From Gammaproteobacteria bacterium (GTDB lineage Bacteria > Pseudomonadota > Gammaproteobacteria > Pseudomonadales > Azotimanducaceae), in the NCBI GenBank assembly GCA_009841615.1, contig VXLL01000025.1, positions 62,001 to 126,000 of the forward strand: a stretch of 64,000 nucleotides of DNA. The letters are read 5' to 3'. The position numbers were made by a program, and so were the translations under genes. The notes beneath the pieces were generated by a model. It was not told where the DNA came from and searched no databases. It saw only the letters and a list, made by a program, of their open reading frames with translations. Positions 53,326-64,000 of the stretch are shown here, one piece after another. Every line of letters starts with the position of its first letter. Position 1 is the stretch's first letter.

Positions 53326-55401
53326 GTGAATGGAAAAAACGCGTTAGCGGTAGACATTGGCGGGACGTTTACTGATGTGGTATTGCAGCTGAATCAACGG
53401 TTGCATGCAACAAAAGTACTCACTACACAAGACGATCCAAGCGAAGCAGTAATCGCTGGAATTGAGCAGCTCTTCATGGAAAGTGGAGCAAGTCCGGAGA
53501 ACATTTCTCTCGTTCTGCACGGTACGACTCTCGCGACGAATGCAATTATCGAAAGGCGTGGTGCAAAAACTGCTCTGCTGACTACCGCAGGCCATCGAGA
53601 TATTCTTGAAATGGCATTTGAGAATCGCTTTGAGCAATACGATGTAAATATTGAACGGCCGACTCCTTTGGTACCCCGCAAGCTTCGCATTCCAATTAAA
53701 GAACGCGTAACCGCGACTGGAAACGTATTGGTGCCGCTCGATGAATCCACCGTGCACCAAGCCATCGATCTCTTGCTTGCGGAGGAAATCGAAAGTGTAG
53801 CAATTGGCTTTTTGCACGCATATCGCAACAGGGACCACGAAGCGCGCGTCGCTGAACTAGTACTCAATCGAGCGAATTCAATACCGTTGAGCCTATCCAG
53901 CGACGTTTGTCCAGAGATTAGAGAGTACGAACGTTTATCGACAACTTGCGCGAATGCGTACGTGTTGCCTTTGATGAGCAGATATCTGTTTTCTCTACAA
54001 GAAAAGTTGAATGCACTAAATTTTCGGTGTCCTTACTTGATGATGACTTCAGGTGGAGGATTAACTAGTCTTGAAACTGCGGCTAAATACCCGATCCGTT
54101 TGGTTGAATCCGGTCCTGCTGGAGGTGCGATTCTAGCTGGTGTAATCGCCCGAGAATTAGCATTGGATCAAGTATTGTCGTTCGACATGGGAGGCACTAC
54201 CGCTAAACTTTGTCTCCTAGATCAAGGGAATACGATTCTTTCACGAGCATTCGAAGTGGATCGAACGTACCGGTTTAAGAAGGGTAGTGGGCTACCAGTG
54301 CGAGTCCCGGTGATTGAGATGGTGGAAATTGGGGCTGGCGGCGGATCCATTGCACAGGTTGACCAATTGGGTCGAATTCAGATTGGTCCTGAAAGTGCCG
54401 GTTCTACACCCGGTCCTGCATGCTATGGATCTGGAGGTACCAACCCAACCGTAACTGATGCGGATTGTGTCTTAGGCCGATTTGATCCGAGTAATTTTGC
54501 TGGTGGGCAACTGCAGTTAGATAGGCCTGCGGCTTCTCAAGCCATATCTACAAGGGTCGGAGATCCACTAGAGCTATCTCTTGAAGACACAGCTTTGGGA
54601 ATTTCAGAGATAGTCGATGAAAACATGACTACCGCGGCACAGAGTCATGCTACTGAATGGGGAAAGTCCGTCCACAATCGTACGTTGATTGCCTTTGGTG
54701 GAGCTGCTCCCCTACATGCCGCTCGATTGCTAGAAAAGATGAACTTAGCGCGGGTGATTATTCCTGAAGGAGCGGGGGTTGGCTCAGCGATTGGATTTAT
54801 CTTCGCGCCTATTTCCTACGAAGTCGTTCGGAGTCGGCATGTGTTATTGTCTGAATTCGATGAAAACCTTGTGAGTGAAATCATTCGGGACATGCGCGAG
54901 GAAGCAAACTCGGTAGTTGCATCCGCTCTTCACGGGTCAGAGGAAGTCACAGAAACTGCTACTGCGTTTATGCGTTATGTCGGGCAAGGTCATGAGGTGA
55001 CCGTATCCTTCGGGGCGGAATCTATCAACAGACATCTATTGCAGCAAAATTTTGAGAAAACTTATGCGGAGTTGTACGGTAAGGTGATACCGGATGCCGA
55101 GATTGAGGCGATGAGTTGGACGTTAAACGTTTCAACTAAGAGTCAAGAAATAGAGTATGTGGAGGACAACGGACGCGACTCAGCGTCCATCAATGAATCT
55201 CTCAAGAAATATGAACTAGTCGACATTCACGGCACGCATGAAGCGACTGTCATCGGACGCGAGTTCTTAAGTCCTGACACTGCGATAGAGGGACCTGCGT
55301 TAATAACTGAAAGACATACGACTACGGTGGTTCCACCGGGCTACCAAGTACGAAAGTTGTCACCATCTAACCACTTATCGCTTGAAAGGGTATCCACGTG
55401 A
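53326..55401 (+). CDS. hyuA: Hydantoinase/oxoprolinase subunit A
   Basis: ATP-dependent ring-opening hydrolase subunit, 691 residues, of the ASKHA fold. Phosphate-binding loops are VDIGGTFTDVVLQ (about residues 9-21) and FDMGGTTAKLCLLDQG (about 287-302). Further blocks are LVLHGTTLATNAIIERRGAKT (about 62-82), SGGGLTSLETAAKYPIRLVE (about 243) and GAGGGSIAQVD (about 338). Substrates of such enzymes include hydantoins, 5-oxoproline and related lactams; which one applies here is unknown. The start is GTG 53326. The stop overlaps the hyuB start (GTGA). Confidence 0.9.
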   Translation: MNGKNALAVDIGGTFTDVVLQLNQRLHATKVLTTQDDPSEAVIAGIEQLFMESGASPENISLVLHGTTLATNAIIERRGAKTALLTTAGHRDILEMAFENRFEQYDVNIERPTPLVPRKLRIPIKERVTATGNVLVPLDESTVHQAIDLLLAEEIESVAIGFLHAYRNRDHEARVAELVLNRANSIPLSLSSDVCPEIREYERLSTTCANAYVLPLMSRYLFSLQEKLNALNFRCPYLMMTSGGGLTSLETAAKYPIRLVESGPAGGAILAGVIARELALDQVLSFDMGGTTAKLCLLDQGNTILSRAFEVDRTYRFKKGSGLPVRVPVIEMVEIGAGGGSIAQVDQLGRIQIGPESAGSTPGPACYGSGGTNPTVTDADCVLGRFDPSNFAGGQLQLDRPAASQAISTRVGDPLELSLEDTALGISEIVDENMTTAAQSHATEWGKSVHNRTLIAFGGAAPLHAARLLEKMNLARVIIPEGAGVGSAIGFIFAPISYEVVRSRHVLLSEFDENLVSEIIRDMREEANSVVASALHGSEEVTETATAFMRYVGQGHEVTVSFGAESINRHLLQQNFEKTYAELYGKVIPDAEIEAMSWTLNVSTKSQEIEYVEDNGRDSASINESLKKYELVDIHGTHEATVIGREFLSPDTAIEGPALITERHTTTVVPPGYQVRKLSPSNHLSLERVST

Positions 55402-57053
55402 GCTTAGTCGGAAACATTGAAAAACAATTGGTCTGGGATCGCTTACTGGCGATTGTTGAAGATCAAGCGCAAACGCTGATGCGTACTGCGTTCTCACCTG
55501 TAGTCCGAGAAGCTGGTGACCTGTCTGCAGGGGTGTTTAATACTAAGGGCGAGATGCTCGCACAAGCGATTACTGGTACTCCGGGTCATGTGAACGCGAT
55601 GGCAAGATCGGTGCCAAACTTTCTCGCTGAAGTTCCAATATCAAAGATGCGGGAAGGTGATGTTCTACTTACCAATGACCCGTGGCTCGCCACTGGTCAT
55701 CTGAATGACTTCACGTTGGTGACACCGACGTTTTTGAACGGAAAGGTTGTTGGGTTATTTGCGTCTACGAGTCATATTGCAGATGTTGGAGGTCGTGGGT
55801 TCGGACCGGATGCTAATGAAGTCTATGAAGAAGGAATTCAAATTCCAATCACCTATCTATTCAAGCAAGGCCAAGTTCAGGCAGAGCTGTTACGATTGAT
55901 TCGTGCAAACGTGCGAGATCCCGTTGTCGCTGAGGGAGACTTGTACTCATTGACGGCCTGCAACAACGTAGGTGCTGAGAAACTCATTGACACGATGAAT
56001 GAATTTCAAATTAAAGACCTATCGGACATCAGTGACATGATCCTGAATACGTCGAGAGACGCAATGCATCAGGAGATTCAGAAGTTAAACGATGGCACTT
56101 ATCGATATGACATGACTGTTGACGGGTACGACCAACCAGTTCATGTAGTTTGCGCGCTCACAATCGATGGTGATCGAATTGTGATCGACTTTACTGGAAC
56201 GTCGGGTGTGTCAAGGTATGGTATAAACGTTCCATTACCGTATTGCGAAGCTTACGCATCTTTTGGAATTCGATGTTTGGTCGGAAATGACATTCCAAAT
56301 AACGCAGGGTCGTTAGCACCGATAGAGGTTGTTGCACCTGCTGGATGCATTCTGAATGCCGAACCGCCCTGTGCCGTGTCTGCTCGTCATGCCCTAGGAC
56401 AGATGCTACCTGACGTGGTAATAGGGTGTCTAAGTCAGGTTTTACCGGACGAAGTTCCTTGCGAAGGGGCGTCGTGTATTTGGAATCCGGTGCTTATGAG
56501 TGATTCAACAGCAAGCATGAACTTCAACGCGCCAGAATTTGTGATCAATCCAATTTTTAATGGAGGAACCGGTGCTCGAGTTCACAAAGATGGGTTGTCG
56601 ACTACTGCGTTTCCTTCTGGAGTGAGAACGACTTCAACAGAAGTAAATGAGATTACCTCACCGTTGGTTTTTTTGCGCCGCGAATACTTGAGAGACTCTG
56701 GAGGAGCAGGTAAATTCCGAGGTGGCTTAGGTCAAATCATAGAAATTGCACATACGCACAAAGCACCCTTTGTACTCTCGAAGATGTTCGAGAGGGTGCA
56801 GCACCCCGCGCGAGGTCGCAACGGTGGTTCGAATGGTGCGGTTGGTCGAGTGTACTTAAAAGAGGACCAGGAATACAGTGGAAAAGGCAAAGAGTGGATT
56901 CCGGCTGGAGCTACATTAGTATTTGAAACTCCTGGAGGAGGTGGGTGGGGCGATCCGATCTCACGGCAAGCTTCTATGTTGCGATCAGACGTTGAAAGTG
57001 GATTGGTTTCCCAAGAACAGCTGTCGAGAGTTTATTTCGCAAACGAACATTAG
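55398..57053 (+). CDS. hyuB: Hydantoinase/oxoprolinase subunit B
   Basis: Partner of HyuA, 551 residues. Typical blocks are VREAGDLSAGVFNTKGEMLAQ (about 35-55), LTNDPWLATGHLNDFTLVTP (about 91-110), FASTSHIADVGGRGFGPDA (about 120-138) and the C-terminal RGGLGQIIEIAH and FETPGGGGWGDP (about 514-525). The pair is sufficient for an oxoprolinase- or N-methylhydantoinase-like enzyme. A segment of its coding sequence (about 56461-56670) is repeated as a decayed copy near 62.4-62.6 kb. Confidence 0.92.
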   Translation: MSLVGNIEKQLVWDRLLAIVEDQAQTLMRTAFSPVVREAGDLSAGVFNTKGEMLAQAITGTPGHVNAMARSVPNFLAEVPISKMREGDVLLTNDPWLATGHLNDFTLVTPTFLNGKVVGLFASTSHIADVGGRGFGPDANEVYEEGIQIPITYLFKQGQVQAELLRLIRANVRDPVVAEGDLYSLTACNNVGAEKLIDTMNEFQIKDLSDISDMILNTSRDAMHQEIQKLNDGTYRYDMTVDGYDQPVHVVCALTIDGDRIVIDFTGTSGVSRYGINVPLPYCEAYASFGIRCLVGNDIPNNAGSLAPIEVVAPAGCILNAEPPCAVSARHALGQMLPDVVIGCLSQVLPDEVPCEGASCIWNPVLMSDSTASMNFNAPEFVINPIFNGGTGARVHKDGLSTTAFPSGVRTTSTEVNEITSPLVFLRREYLRDSGGAGKFRGGLGQIIEIAHTHKAPFVLSKMFERVQHPARGRNGGSNGAVGRVYLKEDQEYSGKGKEWIPAGATLVFETPGGGGWGDPISRQASMLRSDVESGLVSQEQLSRVYFANEH

Positions 57054-57122
57054 TGTGATGGTACGTCCAGCGTGCGAAGAGTATAGCTACAGGCGTTTGA
57101 AGCTTCACTATTAATCTATGAA

Positions 57123-57512
57123 ATGAAGTCTAAAGACGAAAATACCAGCGCACCATTGGAGGCCTACTACGCCGCTCCGAGAACCAGTGTTGAGGAGTTG
57201 CTCAACATGTCTGAATGGGGATTGATCGACAAGATTTTCTTTTTCTTGCAAATTCCTCTGTGCATTGGCGTCGGTACATTGGCAGTCCTCGACTTGATAG
57301 GTGTTGAATTCAACGGGTCGATCGATGGAGCACGTGTGATCCTCGTGTGGTCAATGGTTGTACTGTACTTCTGGTTGCGCCAAAAGCAAACTCAGCCACA
57401 TGGAAAACAAACTCCAAAGCGCTTGTACTTTGTGTTAATAGTCTTGTACGGTGTCGTTGGGGTCTTGACGACGTTCCTATGGTTGGTCCAACATCTTAAA
57501 CTTGACCTCTAA
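57123..57512 (+). CDS. Small three-helix membrane protein, first of a tandem pair
   Basis: A 129-residue protein of no family I recognise. A soluble, partly conserved N-terminus (APLEAYYAAPRTSVEELL, then NMSEWGLIDK) precedes three hydrophobic helices (about residues 37-60, 72-90 and 104-122). A basic loop (LRQKQTQPHGKQTPKRL) lies between helices two and three, suggesting that it faces the cytoplasm. It has a close neighbour paralogue 112 bp downstream. Lies 69 bp after hyuB in the same direction, so it may be part of that transcript. Confidence 0.7.
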   Translation: MKSKDENTSAPLEAYYAAPRTSVEELLNMSEWGLIDKIFFFLQIPLCIGVGTLAVLDLIGVEFNGSIDGARVILVWSMVVLYFWLRQKQTQPHGKQTPKRLYFVLIVLYGVVGVLTTFLWLVQHLKLDL

Positions 57513-57624
57513 TTGCCATTGTAAATGAATGACATACACTGTAATCTCCTAAGAAATTGACTTTGATCTCACTATCTTCGCAGACGTTTTCGCTCGACCC
57601 AATTTTCCGATTTGACAATTAGGC

Positions 57625-58008
57625 ATGAATTTAAAAGACGACAAGTCAAACGCACCGTTGGAATCTTACTACTCCGCTCCTAAATCTAGCTTTAGAGAGT
57701 TGCTCGACATGTCCGAATGGGGATTGATCAACAAGACTATTTTTTACTTGCAGCTACCACTTTTTATGATTTATTTCACGATCATGGTCCTGAAATTGAT
57801 AGGGTTTGAATTCAATTGGCTGGTCGATGGAGCAATTGTCATTTGTACGTGGTCAATTTTTGCACTGCACGTTTGGGTACGCCAAAAGAAAACTACTCCA
57901 GACGGGAAACCTACTGGAAAGCGATTGTACGCTGTCGCAATAGTCATTTGGGGTATTATTGGGGTCTGGAACACGTTTGAATGGTTGGTCAATCGTTTTT
58001 GGTTCTAA
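57625..58008 (+). CDS. Small three-helix membrane protein, second of a tandem pair
   Basis: A 127-residue paralogue of the preceding protein, with the same layout: APLESYYSAPKSSFRELL, DMSEWGLINK, a helix, F-E-F-N, a helix, the basic loop VRQKKTTPDGKPTGKRLY and a final Trp-rich helix. Conservation is strongest in the N-terminal motif and the basic loop, which argues that both copies are real genes under selection. Function unknown. Followed by about 400 bp of non-coding sequence. Confidence 0.7.
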   Translation: MNLKDDKSNAPLESYYSAPKSSFRELLDMSEWGLINKTIFYLQLPLFMIYFTIMVLKLIGFEFNWLVDGAIVICTWSIFALHVWVRQKKTTPDGKPTGKRLYAVAIVIWGIIGVWNTFEWLVNRFWF

Positions 58009-58409
58009 CGATGATCACTCGTCCCATGGTTTGACTTATGAATGTATTGGTAGCTGACCTTAGAGTCTGACACCACCATCAAGTAAAAGATTTTTTACTC
58101 GAATATTGAACCAGTCGGCAACTCCACAATTCGGGAATGACGCGTTTGATCGAAACTTTCTTCCACGACTTGCGATCCATACACACACTGGGACCTCCTT
58201 GGTAACGTCGAGATCGTCTGCCATATCGGTCATTGAATAGTTATCGGTGTCAAATGAGGATGTTCGCTAACTCAGGGACAGCACCACAAGGTTCGGGTGG
58301 TAGAAATTTTGGAAACGATTCGCTTACCGAGAAAGTCCAGCTACCGGCCGACATTTAATCGTCGGAGTTTTCGACCGGCGTTTTTCTGTTTCTTCTGTGG
58401 CCAGTTAGA
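58009..58409. other. Non-coding stretch between the small membrane proteins and the convergent repeat-protein gene
   Basis: About 400 bp without a supported gene. It holds an AT-rich hairpin AGTAAAA-GATT-TTTTACT (58082-58099) and a good Rho-independent terminator near its right end (described separately). Confidence 0.5.
58344..58390 (+). terminator. Rho-independent terminator
   Basis: CCGGCCGA (58344-58351) pairs with TCGACCGG (58371-58378) with one mismatch. An inner stem CCGAC/GTCGG is an alternative pairing. TTTTTCTGTTT follows at once on the plus strand. It should end transcription of the hyuAB-small-protein run just before the convergent gene. Confidence 0.6.
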
Positions 58410-60329
58410 CTACTGTTGAGGGCTGGGAGAGTCTTGCTCTAGTACTTTTCGTTCTTTGTCCGTCAGAAACGACTCAAGATGTTCGATCTGTTCGTTGGTA
58501 TAAGGAGGGTTTGAAGATCTTGCGGCTCTCTGAAGAAGTTCGAGTGCTGCTCTAGCTTGTGCTCGAGGTGTTGGGAGGTCGTCAACGTGTTCGTAGGCCA
58601 CTTGTGGAGACAGTCTCGGCAAAAATTTGCCATAGAACTCAATATGATCTTCTTCCGGTATCTCTTCAGTAAACTCGATGACAGAGTCGATGCTTTGGTC
58701 TTGACGGAAAATCGCCTGTCCAATCATTACATATACATGTAGTCGACCGGGTCCTTCGCGTACTTGTGGGAGCAACTCTTTAGCTTCCTTAAAGTCTCTG
58801 TAGGTTAATGCACCGACGATATTGCCTTCCCAACCAGATCCGGACTCATCAACAGGATATTTGAGAGCAATTTCAATTAAGGACGGAGCAATTTCGGGGG
58901 TAACACGACTTAAAAGGGACGAAAGAAACGTAGCGCGAGAATTTCCCAATGGGATTTCGATTTCCGGGTTGTCTAAGAACCACGTGAACGCTTCCTCTAT
59001 ATCTTGATAAGCCCAGCTTTGAAGCAAGCTCCACATGATGTTCCATCGGGTTTGTGGATCCGGTACCTTATCTAGGTACTCGGTCGCCTCTTTGGGATGA
59101 CGGCCACTCATCGACCAAATTCCCTGAGTAAGCGCGTCCTCTCTGTACTCGATGGGTAACAATTCCAATTGGCGGACCACTTCCAATGGTTCAACACTGA
59201 GCCAAGTTTCAATCACAAGTTCTTCCAAGCGTTTCCTGAGTTGATCAGAGGGGACTGTCGACATAGCGTCTAAAGCTAAGAGTGGATCCATATACGACCA
59301 ACGCTCGGCGCATTCAAATAAAACTGGTCGGGCAGTCTCATGAAACAGTAGCACCGCTTGTTCGAAGACGGTACTGATTTCATCCGTTTCCATTTGATCG
59401 GACAAAACCAGGCTGATTAGGCGAGTTCGCACGCGACGCTTTGGGATGGCGTTAGCCAGATCTGCAAATTTGGCGTATCCGTCTTTCTCAATTACAGCCA
59501 AGGCGATCTGAACTAGTTGATCCTGCTCGTCTTCCCAAAAGTTGTCGACGCTCAGCACTTCCTTCCATGCTTCGGTTGGGTTTTCCAGTGGTTTGTCTTT
59601 CTCAATCTCCTGAAGTACGTAATCTGCGACGTAGGGATTGACGTTTAACTGAGCTGCGATCTGCAGCTTCGCGTCATCAGAGAGATCCCAAGCCGTTCGA
59701 AAAATCTGCTCAAGAACTGCTCGTTTCCCTTCCCAGCTGAGGGTAGGAACGTGTTGTTCGGCATAGGTAAGCGCGGCATCAAGATCAATCTCCGACCAAT
59801 CACGATAGATCTGAGAGGCGAAGCTATCATACTGGACTCTGGGAAAAGATTGGGCATGCGAGAGAGCTCGTATCGGATCAAGTGTCGCAAATTTGCGAAA
59901 AATCTGAGTCTGTGTCGATTGCCGCCTTTCAACTCCTTGAAGATCGTGCGACTCGTCAATTAAATCTACTAGAGTCGATAAATCTGCATTTCTCAACACG
60001 CTGTCGAGTGCTACTGAACTCTCAAAGTAGGTTGGCAACTCGAAAATCGATGCTAGATTTGGAGATTCCCCCGATCCAGTGTTGGACTTGTTGCTTGCGG
60101 TATCGTCTGCGGGTTTGACAAGTCGGGGAATATCTGACTCACGAACTTCTGTAGTAGAGTCCGTTTGCGTACTCTCATTTTCAAAGGGATTGAAGAGCAT
60201 CAGTGTCCCGACACCCAGAATAACGGACACACCCGTGCCGATCAGAAAGGGAACAAGTCGAAAGTGTAAAGTGGAGCGTCTATCGTCTTGAGAAGACATT
60301 GTGTGTTCGCCACAACGGGACATCGGCAT
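58410..60329 (-). CDS. Membrane-anchored alpha-helical repeat protein, copy A
   Basis: A 639-residue protein of a family I cannot name. A short basic cytoplasmic N-terminus and one transmembrane helix (about residues 26-46) are followed by a Ser/Thr/Asp-rich linker (about 50-95). About fourteen helical repeats follow. They contain a recurrent W-x-x-x-D/N-x-x-x-A pattern (IYRDWSEIDLDAALTYAEQ, RWSYMDPLLALDAMSTVP, SWAYQDIEEAFTWFLDN), resembling HEAT/TPR-like solenoids. It is probably a periplasmic protein-binding scaffold. The start may be ATG 60329 or, eleven codons in, ATG 60299. A close paralogue lies at the right edge of the window, a more distant one between them. Confidence 0.75.
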   Translation of the reverse strand: MPMSRCGEHTMSSQDDRRSTLHFRLVPFLIGTGVSVILGVGTLMLFNPFENESTQTDSTTEVRESDIPRLVKPADDTASNKSNTGSGESPNLASIFELPTYFESSVALDSVLRNADLSTLVDLIDESHDLQGVERRQSTQTQIFRKFATLDPIRALSHAQSFPRVQYDSFASQIYRDWSEIDLDAALTYAEQHVPTLSWEGKRAVLEQIFRTAWDLSDDAKLQIAAQLNVNPYVADYVLQEIEKDKPLENPTEAWKEVLSVDNFWEDEQDQLVQIALAVIEKDGYAKFADLANAIPKRRVRTRLISLVLSDQMETDEISTVFEQAVLLFHETARPVLFECAERWSYMDPLLALDAMSTVPSDQLRKRLEELVIETWLSVEPLEVVRQLELLPIEYREDALTQGIWSMSGRHPKEATEYLDKVPDPQTRWNIMWSLLQSWAYQDIEEAFTWFLDNPEIEIPLGNSRATFLSSLLSRVTPEIAPSLIEIALKYPVDESGSGWEGNIVGALTYRDFKEAKELLPQVREGPGRLHVYVMIGQAIFRQDQSIDSVIEFTEEIPEEDHIEFYGKFLPRLSPQVAYEHVDDLPTPRAQARAALELLQRAARSSNPPYTNEQIEHLESFLTDKERKVLEQDSPSPQQ

Positions 60330-60404: not shown

Positions 60405-62192
60405 TCATAGGAACGTTCGAATTTCTTCTAGTTGTTCGTCGGTCAAGTATCTATGTGAATAATTGCCTAAGCCTCTGTCCCGAATTAGATATCGTGCTGC
60501 TTCTTGCTGGTACTTGCGCTGCGGCAGTAAATCTAAGACCTCGTACAACTCTACTTGATCCGTGTTATAGAGTGAGTTTATCACTGATCGGTAGTAGTCG
60601 TCCTGAAAAGACTCTGGTAAATCTGAACCTAGCTCGATTGCTACCGATGATTCGTCTTGCCTTACCAAGGCACTGCCTAGTTCGCTATAGGATCTCTTCT
60701 TAGTTTCATCGTGATCACGAACTTGTGCCAGCATTTCGGTCGCTCGATCTATGTCGGTCTGGGCTAGTATCCGAATGACTTCGAACTCTAACCCTACCTG
60801 ACCATCGGCAATCGTTTGATTCAGTGCCGCACTCATCGCAAGATCCGGATCTGTTTCCACAAGTGAAGGTATTGCAGGCCGTAACAACACTGACTGTAGC
60901 GATTCTTCTTGTAATCCTATCCAGTTAAGCGCTGATCGAGCATCTGTAGCGGCCCATTCTTCGACGAGAGCTCGTCCTAGCTCTTCGACGCCATTAGGGA
61001 ACTCGTTCAAAATATCCAATGCATCTTGCACGGACTCCCGAACAATGTGTTGGAAAGCACTTCCACGTATCCATTGAAGAGAAGAACTCGGCAAATACTT
61101 GGGAAGGTTCTGAAACGCTTCGTAAGGAGCGTTTTCAGCCCAAGCATGGCCGATGTTTTGCATTAAATTATCTTTCACATGCAGCGGGCGAATGTCGACT
61201 TCGGATACTGCTTCAAAAGCAGCTGACGGATCGTTTTTTGCCCACTCGGCTACCACGATGAAAGCACCAGCTTGACGAGCATTTTCGTTTAACTCATTGA
61301 TTAACTTGAAAGCATGCTGTGGATCTTCTTGAGCGATCGGTGTAAGAATGGGATCGAGAATCCCACTTGGATAGTCTATCTGGGATATAGATTCCATCGC
61401 TTCAGGAACAACATCGAAACCTTCACGCGCAACCCATAGTTGGAGGATAGTTCCAAGAGAAATACTCTGCACTTCATCAGAAGTAGCATCTTCCAGAAGA
61501 GCGTTCCAAGCAGATCGTGGATCGTGAGAAGCGCGTGCGATTTGAATCTGTTCGAAAACTTCAGTGCCAATAGACTCGTGTCCGAACTCAAGCGCGAGTT
61601 CCTGAATGCGATCTTCAGAAAAATCGTCTTGTATTCTTAGAATCGCACCCAACGCGGCGCGTCGATCCGCGCTACCTAGCGTCTTTGCGTGAGCAATCGC
61701 AGCATCAATGTCCGTTGTTGCCCATTCAAGAAAGATGGCGTTAACAATCGGTCTGCGACGATTCCAAGCGATATCAAACGTGTGTTTCAACGCCTCCAAA
61801 GGATCAATAACGGCGAAGCGACGGAAGATTTCGATTTGAGTAGTCAGTTTTCGATCATCGGGTTGAATCCGCTTGGATTGTTCAAGTAACGAGGTCACCT
61901 GTTGTTGGTCCGACTTAGACAACATTACTCGAAGAGCTACGGATCTCGTATAGTCGTCCTTTAACGTAGTAAGGCTCTCGAGGTCGCTCGGGAGAGTTGT
62001 TGCCTGTCCTCTGTTAAATTCTGAGACAGATTGGCGTTCTGTTGTTGCCACTTCGTCTGGCGAGGCTGTGGAGGGTCGCTCGTCGTCAGCTGAGAGCAAT
62101 CCAAAAACCCACAGCCCGATTCCAAACAACGCTAAAGGAGCTAACAATCCCACGCAAAACCACGTTAGGACATGGCGGGGATGACCTACCAT
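60405..62192 (-). CDS. Membrane-anchored alpha-helical repeat protein, copy B (divergent)
   Basis: A 595-residue protein with the same architecture as copy A: a short basic start, one transmembrane helix (about residues 9-33, FCVGLLAPLALFGIGLWVFG), an acidic/Ser linker and helical repeats. Shared landmarks are Q-I-E-I-F-R-R-F-A-V-I-D-P-x-x-A-L (copy A: QIFRKFATLDPIRAL), FLEWATTDIDAAIAHAK (copy A: YRDWSEIDLDAALTYAE) and the C-terminal LTDEQLEEIRTFL (copy A: YTNEQIEHLESFL). Identity to A is much lower than between A and C, so the split is older. Lies 75 bp upstream of copy A on the same strand, probably one operon. Confidence 0.75.
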   Translation of the reverse strand: MVGHPRHVLTWFCVGLLAPLALFGIGLWVFGLLSADDERPSTASPDEVATTERQSVSEFNRGQATTLPSDLESLTTLKDDYTRSVALRVMLSKSDQQQVTSLLEQSKRIQPDDRKLTTQIEIFRRFAVIDPLEALKHTFDIAWNRRRPIVNAIFLEWATTDIDAAIAHAKTLGSADRRAALGAILRIQDDFSEDRIQELALEFGHESIGTEVFEQIQIARASHDPRSAWNALLEDATSDEVQSISLGTILQLWVAREGFDVVPEAMESISQIDYPSGILDPILTPIAQEDPQHAFKLINELNENARQAGAFIVVAEWAKNDPSAAFEAVSEVDIRPLHVKDNLMQNIGHAWAENAPYEAFQNLPKYLPSSSLQWIRGSAFQHIVRESVQDALDILNEFPNGVEELGRALVEEWAATDARSALNWIGLQEESLQSVLLRPAIPSLVETDPDLAMSAALNQTIADGQVGLEFEVIRILAQTDIDRATEMLAQVRDHDETKKRSYSELGSALVRQDESSVAIELGSDLPESFQDDYYRSVINSLYNTDQVELYEVLDLLPQRKYQQEAARYLIRDRGLGNYSHRYLTDEQLEEIRTFL

Positions 62193-62359
62193 AATTGGGT
62201 TCGGATCTTTCTTCTACAGGTGAGAAACTATTTTAACACTGCGTTGACGTTAGTACTGGCGGCCCGCATTGCTCCATGTTAGACGACGAGTCATGTCTCT
62301 TACGATGGATTGCGGTAGCCGCGTCGGCAATGCAGATGGTGCTAGGAGCTAGTGTCGAA
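62193..62359. other. Short gap upstream of copy B
   Basis: About 170 bp between the copy B start and the hyuB remnant. It should contain the copy B promoter on the minus strand; no clear motif is seen. It may be an unrecognisable continuation of the hyuB remnant. Confidence 0.3.
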
Positions 62360-62574
62360 CAAACGAGGCATCGCTTAGATTGAATCGTTGGGTGATTAGT
62401 GGTTCATCTGCAAGCATGAAGTTCAACACACAAGAATTCATAGACAATTCGACTCTTAATCGGGGAACCTAGGCTCGAATTTACGAAGACGGATCGTCTT
62501 CTAAGGCGTTTCCTTGTGAAATTAGTACTACTTCAACAGAAGTGAATGAAATTTCCGCGTCGTTTGTAGACTAG
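62360..62574 (+). pseudogene. Decayed fragment of hyuB
   Basis: The plus strand here reads, in one frame and without insertions or deletions from 62413 on, SASMKFNTQEF, then after an in-frame TAG, ARIYEDGSSSKAFP and TTSTEVNEIS. The intact hyuB at 56.5-56.7 kb reads TASMNFNAPEF, ARVHKDGLSTTAFP and TTSTEVNEIT at the same places. Positions differ by a constant 5899 bp (ATG of ASM at 62416 against 56517). Weaker base similarity extends left to about 62360. The internal stop and the short length make it a pseudogene remnant. It ends against the 3' end of repeat-protein copy C. Confidence 0.8.
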
Positions 62575-62579
62575 GAGAA

Positions 62580-64000
62580 TTAAAGCCCAAGAATGTTTCT
62601 TTCTGTTTCCGTCAGAAACGATTCAATGTGTTCGACCTGTTCGTCGGTGAAGGGGTTATAAGAATTGGCTATTCTCTGCAGGAGTTTTAAAGCTGCTCTT
62701 GCTTGAGCTTCTGGTGTTGGAAGCTTGTCAAGTTGTTCATAAACCACTTGCGGGCGTAATCTCATTGCGAATTCACCGTAAAACTCAACATGTTGGTCTT
62801 CTGGTATCTCTTCCGTAAACTCGATGACCGAATCAATACTGTTATTTTGATCGAACAACGCTTGTCCGATTCCCGCATATGCAGTGATTCGCCCCGTTCC
62901 GTCCCTTATTTGTGATAGCAATTCCTTGGCTTTCTTGATATCCTCTCGGGCAATCGCACCGACGATACTCCCTTCCCAACCAGAACCGGAGTCGTCAGTG
63001 GGATGCTCTAGAGCAAGTTTGAACAAGGATGGACCCGTCTCGGCGGTTACACGGTATAAGAGGTATTGGAGTAGGCTAGCGCGAGAATATCCTGAGGGAA
63101 GTTCCAAACCCGGGTTGTCTAAGAACCAAGTGAATGCTTCTTCTATGTTTCTGTAAGCCCAGTTTTGGAACATGTTAACCATGACGCTCCATCTCGTATT
63201 CAGGTCTGCGATCTCACCTAGATACTCGGGGGCTTTTTCGGGTTCACCCGCAGTCATCGACCATATTCCCTCAACAAGTATCTCCTCTCTATACTCGGCT
63301 GGGAACGTGTCCAACTGGCGCAGCACATCCCCGGGATTTCTGTCGATCCAATTCGAAATCACTGTGTTTACCAAGTGTTCTCCTAAAGGATAGAACTGGA
63401 TGTCGGACACAGCCTTCAGTGCTGAATGTGGGTCCAAGTATGACCATCGGTTCGCCAATTCGAAGACCACCGGTCGACCCGTTTCCCGAAACAGTTGTAC
63501 CGCATGTTCGAAGACGACCCCTATGTCTTCTTTGTCCAGTCGACTCAACAATGTATCCCTGATTAAGGTAGTTCTGATTTGACGATCTTGGATGGAGTTA
63601 GCTAGTTCTGCAAACTCAGTGTAGCCGTCGGACTCAATGACTGCTATCGCGATCTGGTGAAGTCTGTTACTCTCATCTTCCCCGATGTTTTCGGCGCTCA
63701 GCACTTCCTCCCATGCTGCTGACAGGTTATCAAGGGGCTTGTCTCTCTCAATCGAGACCAACAGGTCTCTCGCCGTAGAGGAACCGACTCTTAAACGCTC
63801 TGCTATCTGCAACTTCAACGCGTCTGGACGATCCCAGTTAGCACGAACTATTTGCTCAAAAACAGCTGTCGTTCCCTCTCTGCTAAGTGTGGGAACGTGT
63901 TGTTCAGCATAGGTCAGTGCTGAATCTAGGTCGAACAACGACCAATCTCGATAAATCAAAGAAGCTAAATGTTCATACTGAATTTTGGGAAGTGATTCGG
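62580..64000 (-). CDS. Alpha-helical repeat protein, copy C (5' end outside window)
   Basis: Close paralogue of copy A that continues past the right edge. Bases 63960-64000 extend the frame without a stop as ESLPKIQYEHLASL, matching copy A SFPRVQYDSFASQ, so the apparent start at 63959 is not the real one. Shared blocks include TYAEQHVPTLS, AFTWFLDNP, GSGWEG, SIDSVIEFTEEIPE and LPTPxAQARAAL at matching positions. It ends TETERNILGL, shorter than copy A. The missing N-terminus should hold a membrane anchor if the family pattern holds. Confidence 0.8.
   Translation of the reverse strand, partial: ESLPKIQYEHLASLIYRDWSLFDLDSALTYAEQHVPTLSREGTTAVFEQIVRANWDRPDALKLQIAERLRVGSSTARDLLVSIERDKPLDNLSAAWEEVLSAENIGEDESNRLHQIAIAVIESDGYTEFAELANSIQDRQIRTTLIRDTLLSRLDKEDIGVVFEHAVQLFRETGRPVVFELANRWSYLDPHSALKAVSDIQFYPLGEHLVNTVISNWIDRNPGDVLRQLDTFPAEYREEILVEGIWSMTAGEPEKAPEYLGEIADLNTRWSVMVNMFQNWAYRNIEEAFTWFLDNPGLELPSGYSRASLLQYLLYRVTAETGPSLFKLALEHPTDDSGSGWEGSIVGAIAREDIKKAKELLSQIRDGTGRITAYAGIGQALFDQNNSIDSVIEFTEEIPEDQHVEFYGEFAMRLRPQVVYEQLDKLPTPEAQARAALKLLQRIANSYNPFTDEQVEHIESFLTETERNILGL

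Follow-up and report, generated by a model that had tools for sequence, protein, structure and literature searches.

Large paralogous families of bacterial surface proteins that evolve by birth and death have many divergent copies, tandem arrays and copy-number differences between close species. The repeat-protein family found at the locus described here resembles them in its divergent copies, its arrays and its copy number. It has been previously reported that eukaryotic-like repeat proteins of the TPR, HEAT, ankyrin and LRR types are enriched in sponge MAGs (PMC8163846). Those proteins share alpha-helical repeats and high copy number with our family, which differs from them in its predicted single, long, N-terminally anchored solenoid and its two-gene units, and which Pfam-based counts would mostly miss. 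We found no description of this repeat family, or of such sponge-symbiont proteins, in the open-licence literature searched. The lineage studied here presumably includes sponge-associated genomes, judging by the style of the MAG names. The one support for a sponge origin of the relatives is a match of sponge reads to Nitrospira sp. SB0677, given in PMC12203066; the main text of PMC8163846 lacks the name element SB06. The enzyme gene at the locus belongs to the Hydantoinase B / oxoprolinase family (PF02538); its intact copy, hyuB, covers nearly the full model (positions 3-519 of 519) and shows dN/dS values of 0.04-0.06 against five relatives, whereas the fragment considered below is one piece of it, with a stop codon and without constraint.

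We analyzed a window of 64,000 nucleotides (contig VXLL01000025.1, positions 62,001 to 126,000), in which hyuA and intact hyuB are followed by two small genes, sm1 and sm2, and by two cassettes of repeat-protein genes in a row, B-A and D-C as read in the direction of transcription, the second of which reaches beyond the end of the window. The pairs A/C and B/D are paralogous and agree in order and orientation, and sm1/sm2, A/C and B/D are each ~54-56% identical in amino acids; identity of A or C to B or D is ~24-26%. The second unit (relic, C and D) lacks an sm gene. The first-pass annotation had noted that the hyuB fragment adjoins C just as intact hyuB precedes A, and this parallel becomes stronger with D, the paralogue of B, just beyond the window. 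As a side observation, sm1 and sm2 (57123-58008) change fast: relative G013 retains broken pieces only, and G002 has none at the thresholds used.

Features of the hyuB locus (window positions unless prefixed; relatives carry G numbers).
Feature	Position	Strand	Basis or remark
hyuA, Hydantoinase_A N-terminal and C-terminal domains	53326..55401	+	domain match
intact hyuB, Hydantoinase_B	55398..57053	+	PF02538, E 4e-142
sm1, small gene	57123..57512	+	no Pfam family above cut-off
sm2, sm1 paralogue (55% aa), adjoins A	57625..58008	+	sequence comparison
3' flank of A	58190..58409		66.5% nt to 3' flank of A' in G011
repeat protein A, second gene of cassette B-A	58410..60329	-	ORF, structure model
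repeat protein B, first gene of cassette B-A	60405..62192	-	ORF, structure model
stretch between B and fragment	62205..62366		no homologue detected in sequences compared
decayed internal hyuB fragment (codons 358-424, in-frame TAG)	62367..62567	+	homology, without constraint
junction of fragment and 3' flank of C	62562..62580		hyuB homology stops at 62567, C flank starts at ~62561-62562
repeat protein C	62580..64000, continues past window to L003:2464	-	55.8% aa to A
D, after C, outside window	L003:2537-4336	transcribed before C (D-C)	54.2% aa to B

The fragment, its in-frame TAG, the matching motifs ASM.FN..EF and TTSTEVNEI and the offset of 5899 bp to hyuB are all present as the first-pass annotation had described them. 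When a 387-base query (62193-62579) was aligned to the hyuA-hyuB region (53326-57120), the best local alignment paired 62395-62567 with 56496-56668 at a score of 124, far above the scores of 500 dinucleotide shuffles (mean 23.1, maximum 35); a second scoring scheme gave 87 against a shuffle mean of 13.1 and maximum of 19, and under laxer scoring the alignment extended, ungapped and at constant offset, to 62367-62567 against 56468-56668. Searching with hyuB by tblastn gave 50.7% amino acid identity over the 67 aligned codons of the 551 in hyuB (E 3e-13). Within its own genome the 387-base stretch matched, at E 0.001, itself and intact hyuB and nothing else. Furthermore, when the fragment was searched in 58 genomes, 7 matched, all of one genus and including the genome itself, and the matches in the six relatives fall within their hyuB genes.

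Between the fragment and hyuB of the same genome 57/201 bases differ, distributed over the codon positions as 19, 14 and 24 of 67, a split not distinguishable from an even one (chi-square P-value 0.16); over the same stretch, hyuB of this genome and of G008 differ at 0, 0 and 20 sites. The fragment has a lower G+C content than hyuB (0.42 and 0.48), and no ORF of at least 60 amino acids overlaps it on either strand. Positions 1 and 2 (33/134) give the fragment branch a length of ~0.30 substitutions per site (standard error 0.055). This spread over codon positions and the lower G+C fit evolution without coding constraint for most of the fragment's life. The fragment is thus a pseudogene piece of hyuB, homologous to it but no longer under coding constraint. 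In contrast to this drifting piece, the repeat genes are open and constrained, with dN/dS of 0.18-0.41 between cassette genes (0.04-0.11 for uvrC, hyuA and hyuB). This bears out the earlier statement that the enzyme part decayed and the repeat genes were retained, and the data are consistent with selection having kept the repeat genes and not a second hyuB.

We then compared the locus with that of relatives. In G002, G005 and G008 one cassette is visible beside intact hyuB, and it is of the CD type (C 73-87%, D 70-91% amino acid identity); G011 carries both types in an arrangement different from ours, hyuB-sm-C'D'-A'B', and a search at E 0.01 detected no remnant of hyuB between the two. An A-type cassette next to intact hyuB as the ancestral state is not what these genomes show, the CD type being the one that adjoins intact hyuB in all four (G002, G005, G008 and G011). 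CD has therefore probably adjoined hyuB for longer, and sm2-A-B probably arrived later. G010 has hyuB without a cassette, and the region directly after its hyuB matches the split tRNA-Leu region that follows D in our genome. The contig of G005 stops inside D and that of G013 ends ~1.4 kb past the sm remains, so that more cassettes are possible there; D of G008 and C of G005 each match in two frames. The gene between hyuB and C in G008 is 92% identical in amino acids to sm1 and 54% to sm2; unlike it, the sm gene in G005 leans slightly towards sm2 (55%, against 50% for sm1), and that in G011 slightly towards sm1 (58%, against 52% for sm2). A separate observation is the low fourfold divergence of own C and D (L003:581-4336) from G008 (L026), which hints at exchange between lineages or a slower rate.

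The A'B' cassette of G011 has its nearest counterpart at another place in our genome: it is ~87% identical in nucleotides to A2B2 on contig C1 and 73% to AB. In a tree of the B and D genes, B2 joins B' of G011 (support 100/100), own B stands outside them (94/98) and the D genes lie apart. The same cassette type (A'B'/A2B2) hence occupies different sites in two species. We considered whether A2 is a pseudogene and rejected this, its 614-residue ORF being open and the three stops lying at or after the ORF end. By its similarity to the flank of A', the 3' flank of A appears to be one edge of the AB unit.

The relative ages of the copying events were estimated from differences at fourfold sites and third codon positions. 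At fourfold sites, A and C differ at 89/167 and B and D at 82/153 (pooled, 171/320), and the fragment differs from hyuB at fewer third positions, 24/67 (P-value 0.01); compared like for like with all third positions of A-C and B-D (583/1214), the P-value is 0.06. The dS values are 0.51 for fragment and hyuB, 1.13 for A-C and 1.28 for B-D. On this small sample of 67 codons, the copying of hyuB looks younger than the A/C and B/D splits, and these splits, which are common to G011, are probably the older events. The value of 24/67 is about that of the hyuB fourfold differences between our genome and G011 (97/268) or G008 (86/269). Third positions of the fragment differ from hyuB of G002, G005, G008, G011 and G013 at 29-31 sites and from that of G010 at 40/66; in a tree of the fragment and seven hyuB genes, the support for its placement (85.8/42) is too weak to date the copying. 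An event before the species split, followed by loss in the relatives, is possible, since ~0.30 substitutions per site is close to the per-lineage fourfold distance between these species.

Both ends of the fragment were examined. At the right end, the hyuB homology and the 3' flank of C overlap by ~5-6 bases, as judged by the alignment ends. From ~62562 this flank is common to G005 and G002 but not to G008 or G011, although own C is closest to G008 over its first 400 bases (97%). At the left end, 62205-62366 gave nothing above shuffles against hyuB and no blastn match beyond its own copies. Comparison of 62205-62380 on both strands with hyuB, hyuA, the sm region, A, the D flank, two contig C1 flanks and the cassette flanks of G002, G005, G008, G011 and G013 gave a best z of 1.8.

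The explanation that we favour, with modest confidence, is that local rearrangement, at a place where two-gene cassettes are gained, lost and shuffled, left the fragment behind as a partial hyuB copy that is dead and drifting. The A/C and B/D pairs would have arisen earlier, by duplication of a two-gene unit, which may be one mode by which the family grew to its 109 long members here. The block sm2-A-B would then have been inserted between sm1 and C-D in this lineage, and the same event would have copied part of hyuB. This copy, either cut at both sides or short from the start, would have been fused to the flank of C over the ~5-6 shared bases and would then have decayed. The fragment is best read, according to this order of events, as the scar of a rearrangement that came after the duplication giving rise to A and C, and not as a trace of that duplication itself. 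The first-pass annotation had proposed a segmental duplication. That claim stands as far as the partial, decayed hyuB copy and the ordered paralogy of A/C and B/D go; its other part, a single block duplication making A and C, is opposed by G011, by the CD-type neighbours and, less strongly, by the ages; the annotation named the right kind of event and probably erred in deriving A and C from it.

In that single-duplication account, one tandem copying of a hyuB-sm-cassette block gave A-B, C-D and a second hyuB, which later decayed. The A/C and B/D splits shared with G011, which look older than the hyuB copying, speak against it, as do the closer match of the G008 gene to sm1 than to sm2, a pattern that G005 does not show, and the absence of a relic between the cassettes of G011 at E 0.01. 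It draws support from the agreement of the two units in how hyuB (or its relic), the A-type gene and the B-type gene are ordered and oriented, from the similar identities of the three paralogous pairs and from the like-for-like comparison, in which equal age is not rejected at the 5% level; we consider it unlikely. Another account needs no complete second hyuB at any time: while sm2-A-B was being joined to C-D, template switching driven by microhomology would have copied a short stretch of hyuB into the junction as filler. An internal piece of only 201 bp, abrupt at both ends and overlapping the C flank by a few bases on the right, is what such copying would produce, but a full copy trimmed by deletions would leave identical remains, and no partner sequence was identified at the left end. 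We regard this as distinctly unlikely.

The cassettes might also have come from elsewhere, with the CD part, or the AB part and the fragment, imported by recombination from another lineage together with a foreign hyuB stub. Fourfold differences between our genome and G008 are few in C (33/250) and D (40/190) compared with uvrC (105/256), hyuA (130/318) and hyuB (86/269); the match of A'B' to A2B2 at a different site, IS3-type remnants beside A2 and upstream of cassette C27:33457, and an IS3-type transposase upstream of D in G008 point the same way. Nevertheless, the fragment is nearest to own hyuB at third positions, and the fourfold divergence of C and D is below that of core genes against G002 and G011 as well, which may be an effect of rate; the probability that we give to import is lower again. 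We find it hardly credible that the fragment belongs to some unrelated gene or results from an assembly error. The genome is a 38-contig assembly of 92% completeness, which leaves some room for error; however, the homology is collinear, the piece has a stop codon and has lost constraint, neither strand offers an overlapping ORF of the length given above, and a misjoin would be expected to bring in an undecayed copy.

On the favoured reading of a scar left by later rearrangement, the fragment by itself is an ordinary pseudogene scar, and its use is that of a time stamp, which suggests that the array here was rebuilt after an old duplication of the repeat genes. What is out of the ordinary is the family beside it. 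Query A had 110 matches in its own genome, and a profile search of the ~473 kb of own stretches around them, to which the following counts are limited, gave 114 ORF matches, 109 of them of at least 450 residues. Four of the long ORFs have 467-536 residues, and the five short pieces have 70-209, two of them at contig ends. The family occupies 203.5 kb (7.7%) of the 2.66 Mb assembly, with a mean pairwise identity of 22.5% and a cysteine content of 0.2%. An N-terminal hydrophobic stretch is present in 108/109 members and is preceded by a net positive flank in 105/109. The AlphaFold2 model of A has a helix at 20-46, a low-confidence linker at ~47-86 and an alpha-solenoid at 92-633 (mean pLDDT 89); in that of B (mean pLDDT 86) the elements are arranged as in A, the two models not having been superposed. 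The alpha-helical solenoid fold is thus present in the predicted models of A and B, and each member is predicted to carry a transmembrane helix near its N-terminus, joined through a flexible linker to a long alpha-helical solenoid. A periplasmic location is most likely for the solenoid, which would serve there as a binding or scaffold surface.

The family is almost invisible to curated models. Pfam, NCBIfam and PADLOC gave nothing for A and scattered matches in other members of a 77-row alignment: at E 0.01, Pfam found TPR_19 in 2 of these 77 members and PPR, TPR_14 and TPR_12 in 1 each, and NCBIfam matched seven families with one member each. The profile of the 77-row alignment, run against PDB sequences, matched designed PPR proteins (E 2e-13) in at most 8 stretches, the best of ~57 positions, and a PDB fold search with A returned generic solenoids only. 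The PADLOC OloA model matched 4/77 members (best 3.8e-8) and not A, and we did not take this as a sign of a defence role.

Gene order within the arrays has a two-gene rhythm. In codirectional runs of our genome, the mean tree distance at gene lags 1-4 is 3.14, 1.71, 3.15 and 1.82 (64, 30, 21 and 15 comparisons), and for 67/82 genes in even-numbered runs the nearest relative occupies the same cassette position, compared with a maximum of 59 in 5000 random orientations. One array reads ADADADADAD. Runs of a single clade, such as one of eight M genes, occur too and imply that single genes also duplicate. In this genome, alongside such runs, the first and second cassette genes thus often appear to belong to separate clades that duplicate together, and their products may be partner proteins. 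Among chosen arrays of nine relatives (87 members), lag-2 distances were below lag-1 distances in G003, G007, G010, G011 and G013 and weakly so in G014; the rhythm was not seen in the sampled arrays of G002, G005 and G017. The position test in relatives gave 43/66 (random mean 25.9, maximum 44) and, when the nearest relative was sought in another genome, 44/66 (random mean 32.9, maximum 49); neither value exceeded its random maximum.

The family varies widely in number between species. With the A query, 16/18 genomes of the genus had matches and G006 and G012 had 0; the counts were 1-6 in G001, G004, G009, G015, G016 and G017, and the remaining ten genomes had 31-72, where the highest counts are lower bounds limited by the number of candidates scored. 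The profile at E 1e-10 matched 55/200 genomes of the taxonomic family, including 39 outside the genus with at least 1-15 matches each, these being lower bounds from at most 6 candidates scored per genome. In the phylum at least 2/398 genomes matched, our own included, with at most 3 candidates scored in each. Copy numbers from 0 to ~110 between species of one genus make the possible drivers, such as host recognition, surface diversity and choice of partner, testable among close relatives. Tentatively, and as a somewhat doubtful possibility, we suggest that an undescribed family of membrane-anchored periplasmic alpha-solenoids, with more than 100 divergent and mostly full-length copies in a 2.7 Mb genome, has grown partly through duplication of cassettes with paired products; these cassettes would pass from locus to locus and from species to species, forming a combinatorial recognition repertoire, and the hyuB relic would be a datable scar of one such transfer.

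Several minor observations concern the surroundings of the cassettes. A dispersed repeat of ~110 bp lies by A2 (L030:11776-11890), with 5 places in our genome, 15 in G013 and 4 in G011; its copy in L051 overlaps the C-terminal end of a transposase ORF, which we take to be of the IS3 type. As the repeat adjoins cassettes at 2/5 own places (C1:67739 and C27:33242) and at 0 at the hyuB locus, we rejected a transposon as the mover of cassettes, although it remains a lead. Four other cassette stretches of this genome hold a tRNA gene (L064, L065, L070 and L078, with Val, Asn, Thr and Ser), and CD stands near tRNA-Leu. This tRNA-Leu(UAA) gene, after D (L003:4479-4799), is split by what is probably a group I intron (RF00028, E 9e-8; its 36.2 bits fall short of the gathering score, 50), of which a narrow search of the open-licence literature gave no report. 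The gene is uninterrupted in two distant relatives, and by similarity the split form is present in G002, G010 and G011.
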